In this document: positions 7,179 to 17,132 of the stretch, in pieces
How positions within the stretch are numbered: position 1 is the first letter of the stretch
Layout: every line of letters starts with the position of its first letter
From: Desulfobacterales bacterium
Lineage (GTDB): Bacteria; Desulfobacterota; Desulfobulbia; Desulfobulbales; BM004
DNA length: 38,690 nt
Reading direction: 5' to 3'
NCBI GenBank assembly: GCA_021647905.1
Contig: JAKITW010000017.1
Coordinates: 1 to 38,690, forward strand
The notes under the pieces: model-generated
What the model was told of the DNA's origin: nothing
The model's input: only the letters and a program-made list of their open reading frames with translations
The model's database searches: none
Position numbers and translations under genes: made by a program

Positions 7179-8179
7179 TCCTTGATAACTCCTTGTTGTC
7201 TCAGCCGGTCGATCAACCGGTCCATCCCCTCGGCAGTGGAGATCCGCGGCACATACCCCAGATCTTCCCTCGCCCGCCGGATGGAGAACCAGTGCGACTT
7301 GGCCAGTTGCCGGGCAAGGAAACGGGTCATCCGCGGCTCCTCGCCCCGGCCGAGCAGGCGGCTGTATCCTTCGAGCAGGGCGCCGATGCAGTAGGCGGCC
7401 CCAAAGCTTATCCCCCGTGTAACCGGCGGGATGCCGGTCCGGCAAAACAACTCGTTGATCCAGTCCCAGAGATTCACCGGCTCGCCCTGGGAGATAAAAT
7501 AGGCACGACCGGCGGCAGTGGCAATGGAGCGCAGATTATCCGCGGCCAGCAGATGGGCCTGGGCCACGTTCTCCACATAGGAGATATCCACCAGGTTGCG
7601 GCCGTCCCCGACCCGGCGGAGCAGGCCCCGCCGGCCCCGGTCCAGCAGGCGGGGGACCAGGTGCGGATCGCCCGGCCCCCAGATCAGGTGCGGCCTGAGC
7701 GCGCAGGTCCTGAGCCTGGCCTGGTCAATTCCAAGCACCCGTTGCTCGGCCATGGCCTTGGTCCGGGCATAATCACAGAGAAACCGTTCGGCAAGGGGCA
7801 GGGACTCGTCATGGCCGCTGATATCGTTACCAGCAAAGACCACGCTGGGGGTGGAGGTATATACCAGGGTCTTGACCCGGTTTGCCAGGCAGGCCCTGAT
7901 CACATTGTCGGTGCCGAGGATATTGATCTCCTCGTATTCCCAGCGCGGACCCCAGATCCCGGCCTTGGCAGCCACGTGAAACACGGTGTCAAACCCGGCG
8001 AATGTTTTGACCAGCAACCCCGGGTCCCTGATATCGCCGCTAAACGCCCGCACCCCGAGCTGTTCAACCTCGGGATAGCGTCCCCGGCCCAGCACCGCCA
8101 CCTCATCCCCACGATCCCGGAGCTGACGGACAATGGCCAGGCCGACAAAGCCGCCGCCGCCGGTGACCAGGGCCTTCAT
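7175..8179 (-). CDS. oleD: OleD-like 2-alkyl-3-oxoalkanoate reductase (SDR family)
   Basis: OleD reduces the 2-alkyl-3-keto acid made by OleA to a 2-alkyl-3-hydroxy acid with NADPH. The 334 residues show the extended short-chain dehydrogenase fold: the nucleotide-binding VTGGGGFVG (5-13), the catalytic pair Y137 and K141 in YARTKAMAEQ, and a Ser/Thr-rich stretch at 108-112 for the catalytic serine. By sequence alone it could be called a 3-beta-hydroxysteroid dehydrogenase-like epimerase. The ole assignment depends on its place between oleC, with which it overlaps by ATGA, and a coupled protease gene, and on oleB further upstream. Confidence 0.85.
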   Translation of the reverse strand: MKALVTGGGGFVGLAIVRQLRDRGDEVAVLGRGRYPEVEQLGVRAFSGDIRDPGLLVKTFAGFDTVFHVAAKAGIWGPRWEYEEINILGTDNVIRACLANRVKTLVYTSTPSVVFAGNDISGHDESLPLAERFLCDYARTKAMAEQRVLGIDQARLRTCALRPHLIWGPGDPHLVPRLLDRGRRGLLRRVGDGRNLVDISYVENVAQAHLLAADNLRSIATAAGRAYFISQGEPVNLWDWINELFCRTGIPPVTRGISFGAAYCIGALLEGYSRLLGRGEEPRMTRFLARQLAKSHWFSIRRAREDLGYVPRISTAEGMDRLIDRLRQQGVIKE

Positions 8180-9813
8180 AATGCCTGCCCCCGTATCCGG
8201 GCGGCGGCCCAGACCGCCAGTTTTTCGCGGAATATCTTGGCATTATGACGGATATCCACTGGAAAGGCGGGATGGACCAGAAAATCATCAATACCCCGGG
8301 TCAGGGGATTGGCCCCGGCCAGCTTCCGCAGTTCCTGCTCAAGCCGGGCCGGCCGCTTTTTGGAATCGTGCAACTCAACGATCAGCACCGGCACCTGGTG
8401 ACCGGCCGGGCCCAGCCCCACCAGGGCGGAACGGAACACCGCCGGATGCTCGTTAAAGATCGCTTCACAGCAGACGGTGTACAGGGTCTCAACCGGGGTC
8501 CGGACCCGGTGCGCCTTGCGGCCGCAGAACCAGAGCCTTCCCTGGTCGTCAAGATAACCGAGATCGCCGATCCGGTGCCAGGTTTCACCGTTATCACCAA
8601 TCTTGGCCAGTTGGTTCTCCTGATCGTTATGGTCATAGGCCCGGGTGACCACCGGCCCCTTGACCACGATCTCACCGATCTCGTCCACGGGCAGGGCCAT
8701 TGATTCGTCCCATTCCCGGATCGGACCGTTGCACACCGGGATGACCCGGATGGTGATCCCGGGCAGGGGCCGGCCCACGCAGGTGCCGGCGCCGGTCCTG
8801 GTTTTTTCCCAGGTATGGTCTAAAATCTCGCTGCCGGTGATGGAGGCGATGGGCAGACACTCGGTGGCCCCGTAAGGGGTATGGACCTCGCCATCTTCAG
8901 CCATGATCGCCCGCACCCGCCCGATCAACTCACCGGATACCGGCGCCCCGGCCATGAGGATCTTTTTCAGCGAGTCCAGCCGGATGTTCTGCTCAAGACA
9001 GTAACGGCTGACCACGTTCCACAGGGCCGGCGAGCCAAAGGAGTAGGTAGCCCGGTATTCCCGGATGGAGCGGATAAAACGGACCGGATCCACCCGGGCC
9101 GGCCGGGTGGGATCCATGTCCGGCACCACCACCGTGGCCCCCAGGGCAATGGAAAAAAGGGCGAACAGCGGGAAGACCGGCTGGTCGATATCAGCGGCGT
9201 TGATTCCGTAATACTCCTGGATCAGCCGGAGCTGGGCGGCAAAGACGCCGTGCGGGTAGCACACCCCCTTGGGCGGCCCGGTGCTGCCGGTGGTGAACAG
9301 GATCGCGGCCGGATCGTCCTGGTCCCGCATCAGCGCGGCAAAGGGCGCCGCTGCTGGTCCCAATCTGTCCGCGGTAAAGGACCGGCCGAACAGACCGCAG
9401 GAGTTGCCCACGCAGATACTGGTGCGCACGGTGGCAAAGGGGGCCGGGAACAGGGTCTTGAACAAGTGGGCCCTGGGAATCCCCACGAACACGGTGGGCG
9501 CCACCCGGGCCACGCAGCGGCGCAGATTTTTATAGCCCATGCCGGGATCAATGAGGATGATCACCGCGCCGAGCTTGAACAGGGCAAAGGTCAGGGCGAT
9601 AAACTCAAGGGACGGCTTGACCATCAGCAGGACCCGGTCCTGCTGGCTCACCCCCCGCTCCTTGAGGGCCAGGGCAAAACCGTCCGCTATCCGGTCCAGT
9701 TCCGCGAATGTCCAGCTCCGCGGTTGCCGGCCGGCCGGCATTACCAGGGCAATGCGCTCCGGATACCGGCGGGCGGTCTCGGACAGGGACTGGGCGATGT
9801 TGCAGTTCAGCAT
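8176..9813 (-). CDS. oleC: OleC-like beta-lactone synthetase (AMP-forming ligase superfamily)
   Basis: OleC activates the beta-hydroxy acid from OleD with ATP and closes it to a beta-lactone. The 545 residues show the adenylate-forming motifs: the phosphate-binding loop TTGSTGPPKG (174-183), YGATE (314-318), and the hinge region IGDLGYLDDQG followed by FCGRKAHRV (from about 415). The GRKAHRV hinge and the absence of any acyl-carrier or CoA-pathway neighbour fit OleC better than a fatty acyl-CoA ligase. The ATG at 9813 has no clear ribosome-binding site. The gene overlaps oleD by 4 nt. Upstream are an AAATGTG-type short repeat and the 105-bp element, which separate it from oleB. Confidence 0.88.
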   Translation of the reverse strand: MLNCNIAQSLSETARRYPERIALVMPAGRQPRSWTFAELDRIADGFALALKERGVSQQDRVLLMVKPSLEFIALTFALFKLGAVIILIDPGMGYKNLRRCVARVAPTVFVGIPRAHLFKTLFPAPFATVRTSICVGNSCGLFGRSFTADRLGPAAAPFAALMRDQDDPAAILFTTGSTGPPKGVCYPHGVFAAQLRLIQEYYGINAADIDQPVFPLFALFSIALGATVVVPDMDPTRPARVDPVRFIRSIREYRATYSFGSPALWNVVSRYCLEQNIRLDSLKKILMAGAPVSGELIGRVRAIMAEDGEVHTPYGATECLPIASITGSEILDHTWEKTRTGAGTCVGRPLPGITIRVIPVCNGPIREWDESMALPVDEIGEIVVKGPVVTRAYDHNDQENQLAKIGDNGETWHRIGDLGYLDDQGRLWFCGRKAHRVRTPVETLYTVCCEAIFNEHPAVFRSALVGLGPAGHQVPVLIVELHDSKKRPARLEQELRKLAGANPLTRGIDDFLVHPAFPVDIRHNAKIFREKLAVWAAARIRGQAL

Positions 9814-9846: not shown

Positions 9847-9951
9847 TGTCGGTCTCGCAACAACCCGCTCGACGGATGTGATTCGTCTTGTAACTTGTTG
9901 ATTTTATTGGGTGGCATTTGAAGCCTTTCGGGTTGTTACGAGTTCATCAAA
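9847..9951. repeat. 105-bp dispersed palindromic repeat, copy 1 (between oleB and oleC)
   Basis: The element starts TGTCGGTCTCGCAACAACCC and ends with CGGGTTGTTACGAG plus a short tail, so its two ends form an imperfect inverted repeat around CTCGYAACAACCCG. It equals the reverse complement of 13391-13495 at 104 of 105 positions. It holds no coding sequence. The near-identical copies suggest recent movement or conversion; a REP/MITE-type element is the likely class. Confidence 0.85.
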
Positions 9952-12712: not shown

Positions 12713-13258
12713 CTAGCCGCACTCGCAGCCGGGCCCGCAGGCAGGAGCGCCCCCGGCATCGGTATCGCACTCGCAGCCGGCGCCGCAGCCGGCGGCCATG
12801 GCCGTCATTGCGGCCCGCTCGGCAGCGCTGGTCTCCCTGACCTCCATCACCTCGACATCAAAATTAAGCCGCTGGCCGGCCATGGGATGGTTGAGGTCAA
12901 CAACCACGGTCTCTTCGTCCTTGAACGATTTCACCACGAGCATGATCGGTCCCTGCGGCCCCTGGGCCTCAAAGGCCATCCCTTCCTCTATTTCCATATC
13001 AGCGGGGAACTGGCTCCGGGGGATCTCCTTGAACAGATCCTCCTGGGCCGGGCCATAGGCATCTTCGGCCTCAATGGTGATCTTGGCGCGGTCACCGGCC
13101 CGCATCCCCATCAGTTCTTTTTCCAGGCCCGGGATGACCTGGCCGGAGCCGGTAATAAAGGCCAGGGGTTTTCCCTCCTGGGAGCGATCCACTTCCTCGC
13201 CCGAATCCAGGGTCAGGACATAGGAAAGGGCCACGAACACGTTGTCTGCGATCTTCAT
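12713..13258 (-). CDS. slyD: SlyD-type FKBP peptidyl-prolyl isomerase with metal-binding tail
   Basis: A cytoplasmic prolyl isomerase and chaperone of 181 residues. The FKBP part (1-65 and ~130-150) is interrupted by the insert-in-flap domain (about 70-125), the SlyD layout. GSGQVIPGLEKELMGM is the conserved FKBP loop. The C-terminal tail after residue ~152 is rich in Cys (GCGAGCECD, ACGPGCECG), as in SlyD proteins that deliver nickel to [NiFe]-hydrogenase maturation, though here with cysteines in place of most histidines. The start is supported by AAAGGAG. The leader carries a full intrinsic terminator (13280-13324) just before that site, which suggests regulated read-through. The gene is alone; the PAS/GGDEF/EAL gene upstream on the same strand ends 400 nt away. 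Confidence 0.92.
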   Translation of the reverse strand: MKIADNVFVALSYVLTLDSGEEVDRSQEGKPLAFITGSGQVIPGLEKELMGMRAGDRAKITIEAEDAYGPAQEDLFKEIPRSQFPADMEIEEGMAFEAQGPQGPIMLVVKSFKDEETVVVDLNHPMAGQRLNFDVEVMEVRETSAAERAAMTAMAAGCGAGCECDTDAGGAPACGPGCECG

Positions 13259-13279
13259 AATGTTTTTCTCCTTTGATGC

Positions 13280-13324
13280 AAAAAAAAAATCCGGGTCAAG
13301 CTCCGTTCCGTGAACTTGACCCGG
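13280..13324 (-). terminator. Intrinsic terminator in the slyD leader
   Basis: CCGGGTCAAG at 13291-13300 pairs perfectly with CTTGACCCGG at 13315-13324. On the minus strand the stem is followed by about ten T (13280-13289, complement of the A run). The slyD AAGGAG lies only ~6-10 nt further on. There is no room for a promoter between terminator and gene, so a slyD transcript must start upstream and cross it. Confidence 0.85.
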
Positions 13325-13331
13325 GGCGACT

Positions 13332-13496
13332 TTGTCGGTCTCGCAACAACCCGCGACACGGTAGACCGGAATTGTTACGACGCCGTCAACTTTGATGAAC
13401 TCGTAACAACCCGAAAGGCTTCAAATGCCACCCAATAAAATCAACAAGTTACAAGACGAATCACGTCCGTCGAGCGGGTTGTTGCGAGACCGACAA
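13332..13496. repeat. 165-bp composite palindromic element with 23-bp perfect terminal inverted repeats
   Basis: The outer arms 13332-13354 and 13474-13496 are exact reverse complements. Inside, the right part (13391-13495) is the inverted copy of the 105-bp element at 9847-9951. The left part (13333-13390) is a related shorter unit that starts the same way and ends ATTGTTACGAC. The two units thus lie in opposite orientation. No coding sequence is present. It looks like a BIME or MITE. This fills much of the gene-free stretch 13259-13658. Confidence 0.8.
13391..13495. repeat. 105-bp dispersed repeat, copy 2 (inverted relative to copy 1)
   Basis: Reverse complement of 9847-9951 with a single difference (C at 13464 in CACGTC, where copy 1 implies A on this strand). 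Both copies end at the same positions, which defines the unit. The two copies bracket oleB through slyD in inverted orientation. Confidence 0.85.
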
Positions 13497-13585
13497 CTTT
13501 AACAGGTGGCGCGTCCGGGTCCGTACCGGACGGAAAAGTTTTATAACATAAAATCAAAAACAGGGCCAGGCAGAAAATCCAGGGA

Positions 13586-13659
13586 ATCGAACAGCCACCG
13601 TCCGACCCGGCGGACGTGGTTTATCGAACAGCCACCGTCCGATCCGGCGGACGTGGTTT
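13586..13659. repeat. Two tandem 37-bp units with hairpins at the 3' end of the PAS/GGDEF/EAL gene
   Basis: ATCGAACAGCCACCGTCCGA begins both units (13586-13622 and 13623-13659); they differ at one position. Each can fold by pairing GTCCG with CGGAC and CCAC with GTGG. They start at the stop codon of the minus-strand gene, so they may act as a double transcript-end hairpin. There is no T run. A further 7-bp hairpin (CGTCCGG/CCGGACG) lies at 13512-13532. Confidence 0.7.
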
Positions 13660-16600
13660 CAGGAAGAGAGATTCCCGTCTTTGATCCGCCGGCCCTCTTT
13701 CAAATACCTGAAAAAGGTCTTGCCGGGAACCGGCTTGCTAAACAGGTAACCCTGGAACTGTTCGCAGCCGCGCTCCCGGAGAAAACTAAGCTGGGCCTCG
13801 GTTTCCACCCCCTCGGCCACCACCTTCAGACCGAGGCTGTGGGCCATGAAAATGGTTGCCGAGGTAATGGCCGCGTCCTCTTCGTTGTCCGGCAGGTCCT
13901 TGACAAAGGCCCGGTCGATCTTGAGGGCATCAAGGGGCAGCTGTTTGAGATACTGCAACGAGGAATAACCAGTGCCGAAATCATCCATGGAAAAGCAGAC
14001 CCCCATGTCGCGCAAGGCCCGCATGATCCGGATCGCCCCCTGGACATCACCCATGACAATGGACTCGGTTATCTCCAGTTCCAGGCTCCCGGCGGGCAGC
14101 CCGGTCTCCTTAAGCACCCTGGTGACCACCTCCACCAGGTCATCCTGATGGAACTGGCGGGGGGAAAGGTTCACCGCCACGTTGAGCGGATGACCGTTTT
14201 CGTGCCATGACGCGGCCTGCTGGCAGGCCGTGGCGAGCACCCATTCGCCAATGGGTATGATCAGCCGGGTCTCCTCGGCCAGGGGAATAAAATCGAGCGG
14301 CGAAACCAGCTCGCCGTTTCTCAGCCAGCGCACCAGGGCCTCGGCCCCGGCAATGGTCCCGCGCTCGATGCTCACCTTGGGCTGGTAATATACCTCGAAC
14401 TCCCGCCGTTCCAGGGCCCGCCGCAGGCTGTTCTCCAGCTCCAGACGTCGCCTCACCTCCTGGTTCATCCTTTCGGTAAAGAGCTGAAAATTGCCCCGGC
14501 CCAGTTCCTTGGCCCGGTACATGGCCAGTTCGGCGTTTTTGATCAGGGCAACGGCATCCTCGCCGTCGGCCGGGTAGAAGGTAATGCCGATACTGGCGCC
14601 GGCAAAGAATTCCTGCTCCTCGACCCGGATCGGTTCGGCAAAGGCATTCTCGATCCGCCGGGCCACCTCCAGGGCATCCCTTTCATCTTTAATCTCGGTC
14701 AGCAGCATGATGAATTCGTCACCGCCGACCCGGGCCACCGTGTCCTCGTCCCGGCAGCACTCCTGCAGCACCCCGGCAACCTCCTGCAGGAACCGGTCAC
14801 CGACATTGTAGCCCAGGCTGTCGTTGATATTCTTGAAATTGTCCAGATCGAGAAAAAACACCGCCAGTATCCGCCGGTGTCGCCTGGCATAGGCCATCGA
14901 CACCTCCAGCCGATCAATGAAAAGCTGGCGGTTGGGCAGCCCGGTCAGGGCGTCATGATAGGCCTGATGCTGCAACTGTTCCTCGCCCCGCTTGACATCG
15001 GTGATATCATAAAACACGGCAACATAATGGGAGGTCTTCCCCTGGAGATCCTTGACCGCGGTGATGGACAGCCTTTCCGGATAGGCCTCGCCGTTTTTCC
15101 TCCGGTTCCAGATCTCGCCGCTCCAGAGGCCCTGGTCATTGATGGCCTGCCACATCTCCCGGTAAAACTCCGGACCGTGCAGGCCGGACCGCAGGATCCG
15201 GGGATTTTTGCCGATCACCTCGTCGGCGCTATACCCGGTAATCGCCGTAAAGGCCGGATTCACCTGTTCGATTTCAGCGTCGGCATTGGTGATCGTAACC
15301 CCCTCGATACTGTTCTCGAAAACCGATGCCAAGAGCAGCATCCGCTGCTTGCGCTCGGTAATGTCCTGACCGAACAGATACACCGAACCGGTCTCCTTTA
15401 TCGGCACCGACATGAAGGAAAAGACCTTATCATCAATCCCTGTTTCAACATCCCGGACCATCTCTCCGGTTTCAAGGGCCCGGCGGAAACTTGTCAGCAG
15501 AAATTCCGGCAGACAGCTGCCGGTCGCACATTGCCATTTTTCAAGCAGGTAGGAGGATGCCGGGTTGGCATAGAGTATGGTGCCGTTGTCAGCGACCCGT
15601 AATATGGGGTTGGGGTTCTGTTCCGGGAACTCGGCCAGGACCCGGATCTTTTTCTCTGCTTCATGCAGTTCGGTGATATCGCGGCAATTGAGCACCACTC
15701 CCGAGACCGTGTTATCCCTTTCCACCGCCGGGTAACAGGCTATATCCATGAAAAAAACAGGGCCGCCGGCAGAGGCGGACCACTCCTCCTGGACCCTGAC
15801 CGTCTCGCCGGCCAGGCACCGGTCCACCCTTTCCTTGATCCGGGCAAAAGACTCGGCTCCCATCAGATCGGCCACGGAACGGCCCACCACCTCACCACGT
15901 TGTCTGTTAAAGGCCTTTAGAAAGGCATCGTTAACAGCCAGGTACACATAGTTCCGGTCCAGCAAGGCCATATGCTCGGAAGAGGCGGCCACGATCTGTT
16001 CATAGCGCCGCAGACTCCGTTCGAGTTGCCGCCGACGCACCTGGGCCCCGGCCAGCAGCCAGGAGCCAATGGTCAGCACGACAAGCAGGGCAACATCCAC
16101 GACCAGCATCCGGATGCGGAAAGGATACAGTGCCGCGTGGAGGGTTGCCGTGGGCATGAAGGAAATTATCCGCCAGAAATAGGCATCCTGTCCCGGATCA
16201 TCACCCTTGTCGGTGGAGAGCAGCCGCTCGCCAAGGTTCTTCCGCGCCTCCCGCACCGGGTAGATGGTGGCAAACGATATCAATCCGTCTTGGTTGATGA
16301 ACTGTCCTGATTCTTCAGCAATTATTTTCTGCCAGGCATCGGGGTAGCGGTTGGCAAAGGTCATATCCCGGCCCTCGGGGAACATGAACCCCCATTCCTC
16401 CTCGGGCCGGGCGCCTTTCAGCCAATAGCCCGCGGAGTTCAGCAGCATGATGCCGCCATGGAGCGAGGTCGCCGTCCTCGGTCCCAGATCTTGAAGAAAT
16501 TTATTACCCAGATAGTTGAGAATAACGATGCCGGTCCCGCGGCCCTGGGAATCAAAGGTCGGGGTGGCAAAACGGATGACCGGCTTGAACGGCCTTTCAA

Positions 16601-17132
16601 CCTCTTTGTTTTCCACGTTCAGATCAAGGGGGGATACGAAAATCTGTCCCTCGGCCAGACCAATCGTCTCCTGAAAATAATAGCGGTCCCCCTTGAACTG
16701 CAACCCCTCGTCCGGCACAACAACCGGACCGGCCGGGGATTTGTTGACCCTGATGACCTCCATGCCGTCGGCATCAAGAAAACGGATCTGGTCATAACCG
16801 GTCTTGAATCTGCTGAAGACCAGAAACTCCCTGATCAACTGCTCCCGGGCGTCATTGTCATTCCTGTTGGCGAAAAAGACCTCAAACTCGTGATGTTTGG
16901 CCAATATCATCAGATCGGAAACAATGGCCTCGAACCGGGCGGCGATATTCTTTTCCTGCTCGTTGAGATAGACCGCTTCCCGGCCCATGATGATGGTCTC
17001 TTCCACCCGGTGGCGCTTCATATAGAAAAAAACCGAAACCACGCCCAGGAGCAGGAGCAGGGGCAGAAACAGCTTGAAAAACCGTCTTGCCACCGTGTCC
17101 ATGCCGTTTCCAGTCGGATAATTAGCATGCAT
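13659..17132 (-). CDS. Membrane sensor with PAS, GGDEF and EAL domains (c-di-GMP turnover)
   Basis: A 1157-residue inner-membrane protein that probably makes or breaks cyclic di-GMP in response to a periplasmic signal. Layout: membrane segment 18-38; periplasmic sensor ~40-335, of the double-Cache type by length and by motifs such as RYYFQETIG; membrane segment ~341-362; PAS domains ~375-490, ~495-595 and ~600-715; GGDEF domain ~720-885 with an intact RVGGDEF (803-807 for the motif); EAL domain ~895-1145. The EAL motif is intact (AEALVRW, 931-933), as are NLSPRQF, ELEITES, DDFGTGYSSL, LKIDRAF and VAEGVE, so the phosphodiesterase should be active. ATG at 17132 has GGGAG upstream; ATG 10 codons later is an alternative. 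It is monocistronic, with tandem hairpins at its 3' end. Confidence 0.92.
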   Translation of the reverse strand: MHANYPTGNGMDTVARRFFKLFLPLLLLLGVVSVFFYMKRHRVEETIIMGREAVYLNEQEKNIAARFEAIVSDLMILAKHHEFEVFFANRNDNDAREQLIREFLVFSRFKTGYDQIRFLDADGMEVIRVNKSPAGPVVVPDEGLQFKGDRYYFQETIGLAEGQIFVSPLDLNVENKEVERPFKPVIRFATPTFDSQGRGTGIVILNYLGNKFLQDLGPRTATSLHGGIMLLNSAGYWLKGARPEEEWGFMFPEGRDMTFANRYPDAWQKIIAEESGQFINQDGLISFATIYPVREARKNLGERLLSTDKGDDPGQDAYFWRIISFMPTATLHAALYPFRIRMLVVDVALLVVLTIGSWLLAGAQVRRRQLERSLRRYEQIVAASSEHMALLDRNYVYLAVNDAFLKAFNRQRGEVVGRSVADLMGAESFARIKERVDRCLAGETVRVQEEWSASAGGPVFFMDIACYPAVERDNTVSGVVLNCRDITELHEAEKKIRVLAEFPEQNPNPILRVADNGTILYANPASSYLLEKWQCATGSCLPEFLLTSFRRALETGEMVRDVETGIDDKVFSFMSVPIKETGSVYLFGQDITERKQRMLLLASVFENSIEGVTITNADAEIEQVNPAFTAITGYSADEVIGKNPRILRSGLHGPEFYREMWQAINDQGLWSGEIWNRRKNGEAYPERLSITAVKDLQGKTSHYVAVFYDITDVKRGEEQLQHQAYHDALTGLPNRQLFIDRLEVSMAYARRHRRILAVFFLDLDNFKNINDSLGYNVGDRFLQEVAGVLQECCRDEDTVARVGGDEFIMLLTEIKDERDALEVARRIENAFAEPIRVEEQEFFAGASIGITFYPADGEDAVALIKNAELAMYRAKELGRGNFQLFTERMNQEVRRRLELENSLRRALERREFEVYYQPKVSIERGTIAGAEALVRWLRNGELVSPLDFIPLAEETRLIIPIGEWVLATACQQAASWHENGHPLNVAVNLSPRQFHQDDLVEVVTRVLKETGLPAGSLELEITESIVMGDVQGAIRIMRALRDMGVCFSMDDFGTGYSSLQYLKQLPLDALKIDRAFVKDLPDNEEDAAITSATIFMAHSLGLKVVAEGVETEAQLSFLRERGCEQFQGYLFSKPVPGKTFFRYLKEGRRIKDGNLSS

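Follow-up and report, generated by a model that had tools for sequence, protein, structure and literature searches.

In the pyrG attenuator of B. subtilis, a start-proximal terminator operates without a long leader, through slippage at a G-run at +1. The slyD leader of relatives is likewise predicted to have a start-proximal terminator but, unlike pyrG, is without a G-run at +1: of 27 loci, just one has GGG within ~4 nt of the predicted +1. Terminator-type riboswitches, e.g. c-di-GMP-I (RF01051), resemble the slyD leader in that the terminator lies directly before the ribosome-binding site (RBS), and differ from it in that neither an aptamer nor an antiterminator was found at slyD. NusA autoregulation in B. 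subtilis acts through an intrinsic terminator in a 5′ leader, the efficiency of which is set by a trans-acting factor (PMC12288461). An intrinsic terminator in the 5′ leader is also what the slyD locus shares with that system (PMC12288461); here, however, the gene is slyD, and by prediction no more than ~15 nt separate the start from the terminator. In E. coli, CspD is linked to read-through of the start-proximal intrinsic terminators of short RNAs (PMC9765468). The terminator of the slyD leader is likewise predicted to be start-proximal and intrinsic; a role for a protein factor at slyD is our proposal.

Among the papers searched, none describes an attenuator in the leader of slyD. In relatives, the leader has the general layout of a 5′-UTR attenuator, i.e. 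an intrinsic terminator between promoter and coding sequence; of the traits of antiterminator-type attenuators and riboswitches, we find neither a mutually exclusive fold nor a match to an RNA family. We regard the slyD leader as a new candidate of a broad kind, the 5′-leader terminator, and not as a new kind.

The terminator before slyD

The window, i.e. the whole 38,690-nt stretch of DNA that was analyzed, carries slyD on its minus strand, preceded by the following elements (assigned from the sequence; for slyD also from Pfam and its tail, and for the hairpin also from folding and its same position in relatives).

12713..13258, minus strand, slyD, FKBP-type peptidyl-prolyl isomerase, 181 aa, with a Cys-rich C-terminal tail
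13268..13273, minus strand, ribosome-binding site AAGGAG, 9 nt 5′ of the ATG
13280..13289, minus strand, U-tract of exactly ten
13291..13324, minus strand, terminator hairpin of 13 pairs with a loop of 8

Read 5′ to 3′ on the minus strand, the leader is CCGGGTCAAG TTC-ACGGAACG-GAG CTTGACCCGG A TTTTTTTTTT GCATCA AAGGAG AAAAACATT ATG or, split into stem and loop, CCGGGTCAAGTTC-ACGGAACG-GAGCTTGACCCGG-A-TTTTTTTTTT-GCATCA-AAGGAG-AAAAACATT-ATG. The original prediction described a perfect 10-bp stem followed by about ten T, with no space for a promoter between the hairpin and the RBS. Both points are borne out, coordinates included: the outer 10 bp are perfect within a full stem of 13 pairs (one of them G-U), and only 6 nt separate the run of ten T from AAGGAG. 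The hairpin ranks first among 24 terminator-like sites in 10 kb, a number that, counting sites of any quality, compares with 11.6 ± 4.0 in shuffled sequence. Its 72-nt segment folds with a z-score of −5.4, and none of 200 shuffles folds as well. Rfam returned no match at the slyD leader, either in the window or at 9 loci of relatives.

The slyD product matches Pfam FKBP_C (E = 3e-16) and scores 104.8 bits against the SlyD equivalog model PRK10737 (NCBIfam), below the curated cut-off of 174; its tail holds 6 Cys within the last 35 residues. A linkage of slyD with a cold-shock protein (csp) gene was considered and rejected, as the convergent downstream csp gene occurs at 7 of 59 loci, all from genus g2 (L064-L069) except L041.

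Conservation, covariation, and specificity

Relatives were drawn from the family, the order, and the phylum; the genus holds this genome alone, and sampling at class level returned the same genomes as at order level. Upstream of slyD, one arrangement recurs among these relatives, i.e. TTGAC(A/T/C), N16/17, TAnnnT, 12–20 nt, a GC-rich hairpin, 6–10 T, and the RBS. By eye, hairpin and U-tract are present at ~23 of 29 Cys-tailed slyD loci of the order, and a strict automatic rule finds them at 17 of the 29. Of 30 loci measured, all but one have 12–20 nt between the −10 and the stem, with a median of 17 nt, and the start, predicted from the promoter consensus only, falls ~6–14 nt 5′ of the stem. 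The same order of promoter, hairpin, U-tract, and RBS is also found at other slyD loci across the phylum, among which the upstream sequences of L126 and L128 are those of the Deltaproteobacteria records L042 and L043, pointing to Desulfobacterota as the phylum. Whether relatives with the same slyD have the hairpin was one check of the original prediction, and its outcome was in favor of that prediction. In the canonical set of loci, the U-tract adjoins the stem. A Carafa-type score, which was computed with strict adjacency, exceeds 0 in only 10 of 29 order loci, partly because an A stands between stem and T-run.

The element is not indispensable, given that some phylum families and order members are without a proper U-tract or hairpin. 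Specifically, the order members concerned are L095 and L100, in which the hairpin is degenerate, together with L107, L109, and L110; among the phylum families, f91 and f43 have a hairpin that is not followed by a U-tract. On the SlyD tree, the terminator state is clustered, yet with several gains or losses. The arrangement is present in each of the rows nearest to the SlyD of this genome (L040, L092, and L093), although the promoter of L040 is less clear. As a separate observation, a second slyD copy in G011 (L075) has a hairpin and T-run ~100 nt before slyD, with a loop region close to that of the window (GTTCACAGAACGGAGC vs GTTCACGGAACGGAGC) and a stem that differs by compensatory changes.

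With the stem arms of the loci aligned by hand, compensatory changes are found at 11 of 12 stem pairs. Paired cells make up 94% of the stem, a value that none of 500 shuffles reached and that is far lower in slid registers; the arms were picked for pairing, which favors this percentage and affects the compensatory changes less. In this genome, the stem differs from the commonest one in most of its sequence and retains its form. From this pattern of substitutions, we conclude that the structure is under selection.

The arrangement is also specific to slyD. Base rates were computed on ~840 kb, where an automatic scan places a terminator-like hairpin at that position in 7 of 358 control genes (2%), the slyD of G009 included. 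Under stricter criteria, five genes have a strong terminator directly before the RBS: two are slyD, one lies behind a c-di-GMP-I riboswitch, and two are of an unexplained kind. Recovery of the true c-di-GMP-I riboswitch gene served as a positive control for the scan, and of the five genes just one, the slyD of G009, shows a consensus promoter immediately ahead of the hairpin. In five genomes of the order, the commonest exact hairpin has a single site, which in every case is at slyD. A covariance model (R1) searched against 251 order genomes gave 18 matches with E < 1e-6, all 18 at slyD; most of these loci went into the model, and the informative point is that there are no other strong sites. 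It does not detect the divergent hairpin of this genome. The 12 weaker matches inspected lie mostly just 3′ of the stop codons of other genes, as ordinary 3′ terminators do. A shared terminator repeat was considered as well and rejected, because pattern and model searches give strong matches at slyD alone. Among short FKBP paralogues of the same genomes, 16 loci showed no comparable element. Of note besides slyD are a c-di-GMP-I riboswitch with a terminator before a 160-aa lipoprotein-like gene (L176 18111-18183, G091) and a 201-aa gene whose RBS is immediately preceded by a strong hairpin and eight T, with no Rfam match (L155 ~10589, G000:C7).

Probable attenuation and its alternatives

The original prediction held that transcripts start upstream and cross the terminator, and this is supported by the upstream promoter of relatives, the compensatory changes in the hairpin, and an upstream gene that is often divergent. 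Under the reading we favor, hairpin and U-tract would form an intrinsic terminator within the 5′ untranslated region of the slyD mRNA. Most initiations in relatives would then yield a terminated RNA of ~50 nt, and the RBS and slyD would be reached only by polymerases that read through. We infer from the conserved arrangement that the element may terminate in vivo and be regulated, and we consider it rather probable that premature termination at the leader limits slyD expression.

Attenuation is in this general sense the best reading of the locus, while the classic kind does not stand, as in relatives the start is predicted to lie ~6–14 nt 5′ of the stem, too close for an antiterminator to fit in between. 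In the window, the search for an antiterminator across 13325-13545 was negative, with a longest complement of 7–8 nt against a shuffled mean of 7.1–7.4. Translation-dependent read-through, which had also been proposed, finds no support: the RBS follows the terminator, no upstream ORF was seen by eye to be conserved, and no antiterminator was found in 13325-13545. Several relatives lack the possible leader-peptide starts of the 5′ arm, and the frames differ through the loop (by eye). With the terminator near the start and the RBS behind it, neither a riboswitch nor coupling to the slyD ribosome should be able to open it. Because the leader of relatives is too short for a competing antiterminator fold, read-through would most likely be set by the polymerase and trans-acting factors, i.e. 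NusA/NusG, cold-shock proteins, or a dedicated RNA-binding protein. The mode would be that of a fixed leader terminator with a leakiness that depends on polymerase and factors.

A bolder version, i.e. a phylum-wide, slyD-dedicated attenuator with its terminator within ~15 nt of the start, no alternative fold or antiterminator, and a leakiness controlled by a dedicated trans-acting factor, is unlikely. If the element terminates in vivo, Desulfobacterota would have in it a cis-regulatory RNA not described before, which covariation shows to be conserved and which is specific to a single chaperone/metallochaperone gene. It would then also offer a clean natural case of attenuation with a leader too short for an alternative fold, placing control in the polymerase or a protein.

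The strongest alternative, which we regard as possible if still doubtful, is that the hairpin stabilizes or insulates the 5′ end of the mRNA and the U-rich stretch serves as a ribosome (S1) landing site or translation enhancer, with little termination. More distant relatives (L127, L129, L137-L139, and L141) do keep a promoter-proximal hairpin without a U-tract, and the U-tract can pair weakly with the purine-rich RBS in folds. Within the order of this genome, however, the T-run of 6–10 adjoins a GC-rich stem in terminator format, even where the stem sequence has wholly changed.

It is improbable that the terminated RNA of ~50 nt is itself the product, an sRNA made from the slyD promoter, with slyD living on read-through. 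Members of three families (f1, f5, and f13) have the same 5′ stem arm, CCCGATGAAGCC, beyond what pairing demands, but the loop is unconserved, other families and this genome have different stem sequences, and the element is always linked to slyD. Slightly less probable again is that the hairpin simply serves the upstream gene as its 3′ terminator, or insulates against read-through, with slyD starting within or after the hairpin. Such a reading would suit the window, where a co-directional GGDEF/EAL gene (13659-17132) has its end 335 nt upstream of the hairpin. In at least 12 relatives, by contrast, crude ORF calls place the nearest upstream gene divergently, so that sense transcription reaching the hairpin there should be that of slyD; moreover, the conserved −35/−10 lies upstream of the hairpin, and no promoter is seen between hairpin and RBS.

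The metal-responsive read-through of the original prediction, tied to the metal-binding tail of SlyD, is very improbable: all these SlyDs have Cys-rich tails, but loci without the terminator carry the same tails, so that terminator presence does not track the tail, and relatives have no room for an aptamer before the stem and no Rfam match. Attenuation of the pyrG type, in which slippage at a +1 G-run makes the antiterminator, is a known means of regulating a terminator close to the start when the leader is not long, and is hardly credible here given the rarity of GGG at the predicted start.

MITE insertions upstream of the terminator

Most of 13325-13500, where the original prediction suggested looking for an antiterminator, is mobile-element sequence. 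The features upstream of the hairpin are as follows (no strand is assigned to target sites and MITEs).

13329..13333, target-site copy ACTTT, 5 bp, on the slyD side
13334..13388, short derivative (55 bp) of the MITE family, flanked by two ACTTT copies, with terminal sequence GTCGGTCTCGCAACAACCCG
13389..13393, target-site copy ACTTT, middle
13394..13495, full-length MITE, 102 bp, with inverted termini, one of dozens of near-identical copies
13496..13500, target-site copy ACTTT, outer
13496..13502, minus strand, TTAAAGT, putative −10 box intact at the outer MITE junction, resembling the TAAAGT −10 of relatives
13540..13548, minus strand, TGTTATAAA, alternative candidate for an extended −10-like sequence, from the sequence
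13659-17132, minus strand, PAS/GGDEF/EAL gene, co-directional and upstream of slyD

The repeat has the length (102 bp), inverted termini, 5-bp duplications, and high copy number of a MITE. One terminus gives 157 matches in 2.73 Mb of the genome, and the copies are near-identical, with 5-bp duplications at many sites, and often stand in tandem at a 107-bp period. A further terminus of the family is found in the window at 9847-9867, just upstream of an AMP-binding gene (8176-9813).

Upstream of the hairpin, the window showed no convincing slyD promoter, and the native one is not recognizable. The outer ACTTT preserves the putative TTAAAGT box, which is without a good −35; in the rejoined empty site, a −10-like box would stand only 4 nt from the stem, unlike in relatives. 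The leader of this genome is probably longer by about 165 nt. Here the terminator persists intact while two MITE insertions have reshaped what lies upstream of it, and the locus shows a MITE family rewriting a leader upstream of a conserved terminator. In G012, one of the 23 order loci with hairpin and U-tract, a palindromic repeat is inserted between the terminator and the slyD RBS (L212 400-580), the mirror case of the window. Finally, a tandem pair of 37-bp repeats, each of which could fold into a small hairpin, lies at 13586-13659 of the window, at the 3′ end of the GGDEF/EAL gene, where it reaches the stop codon.
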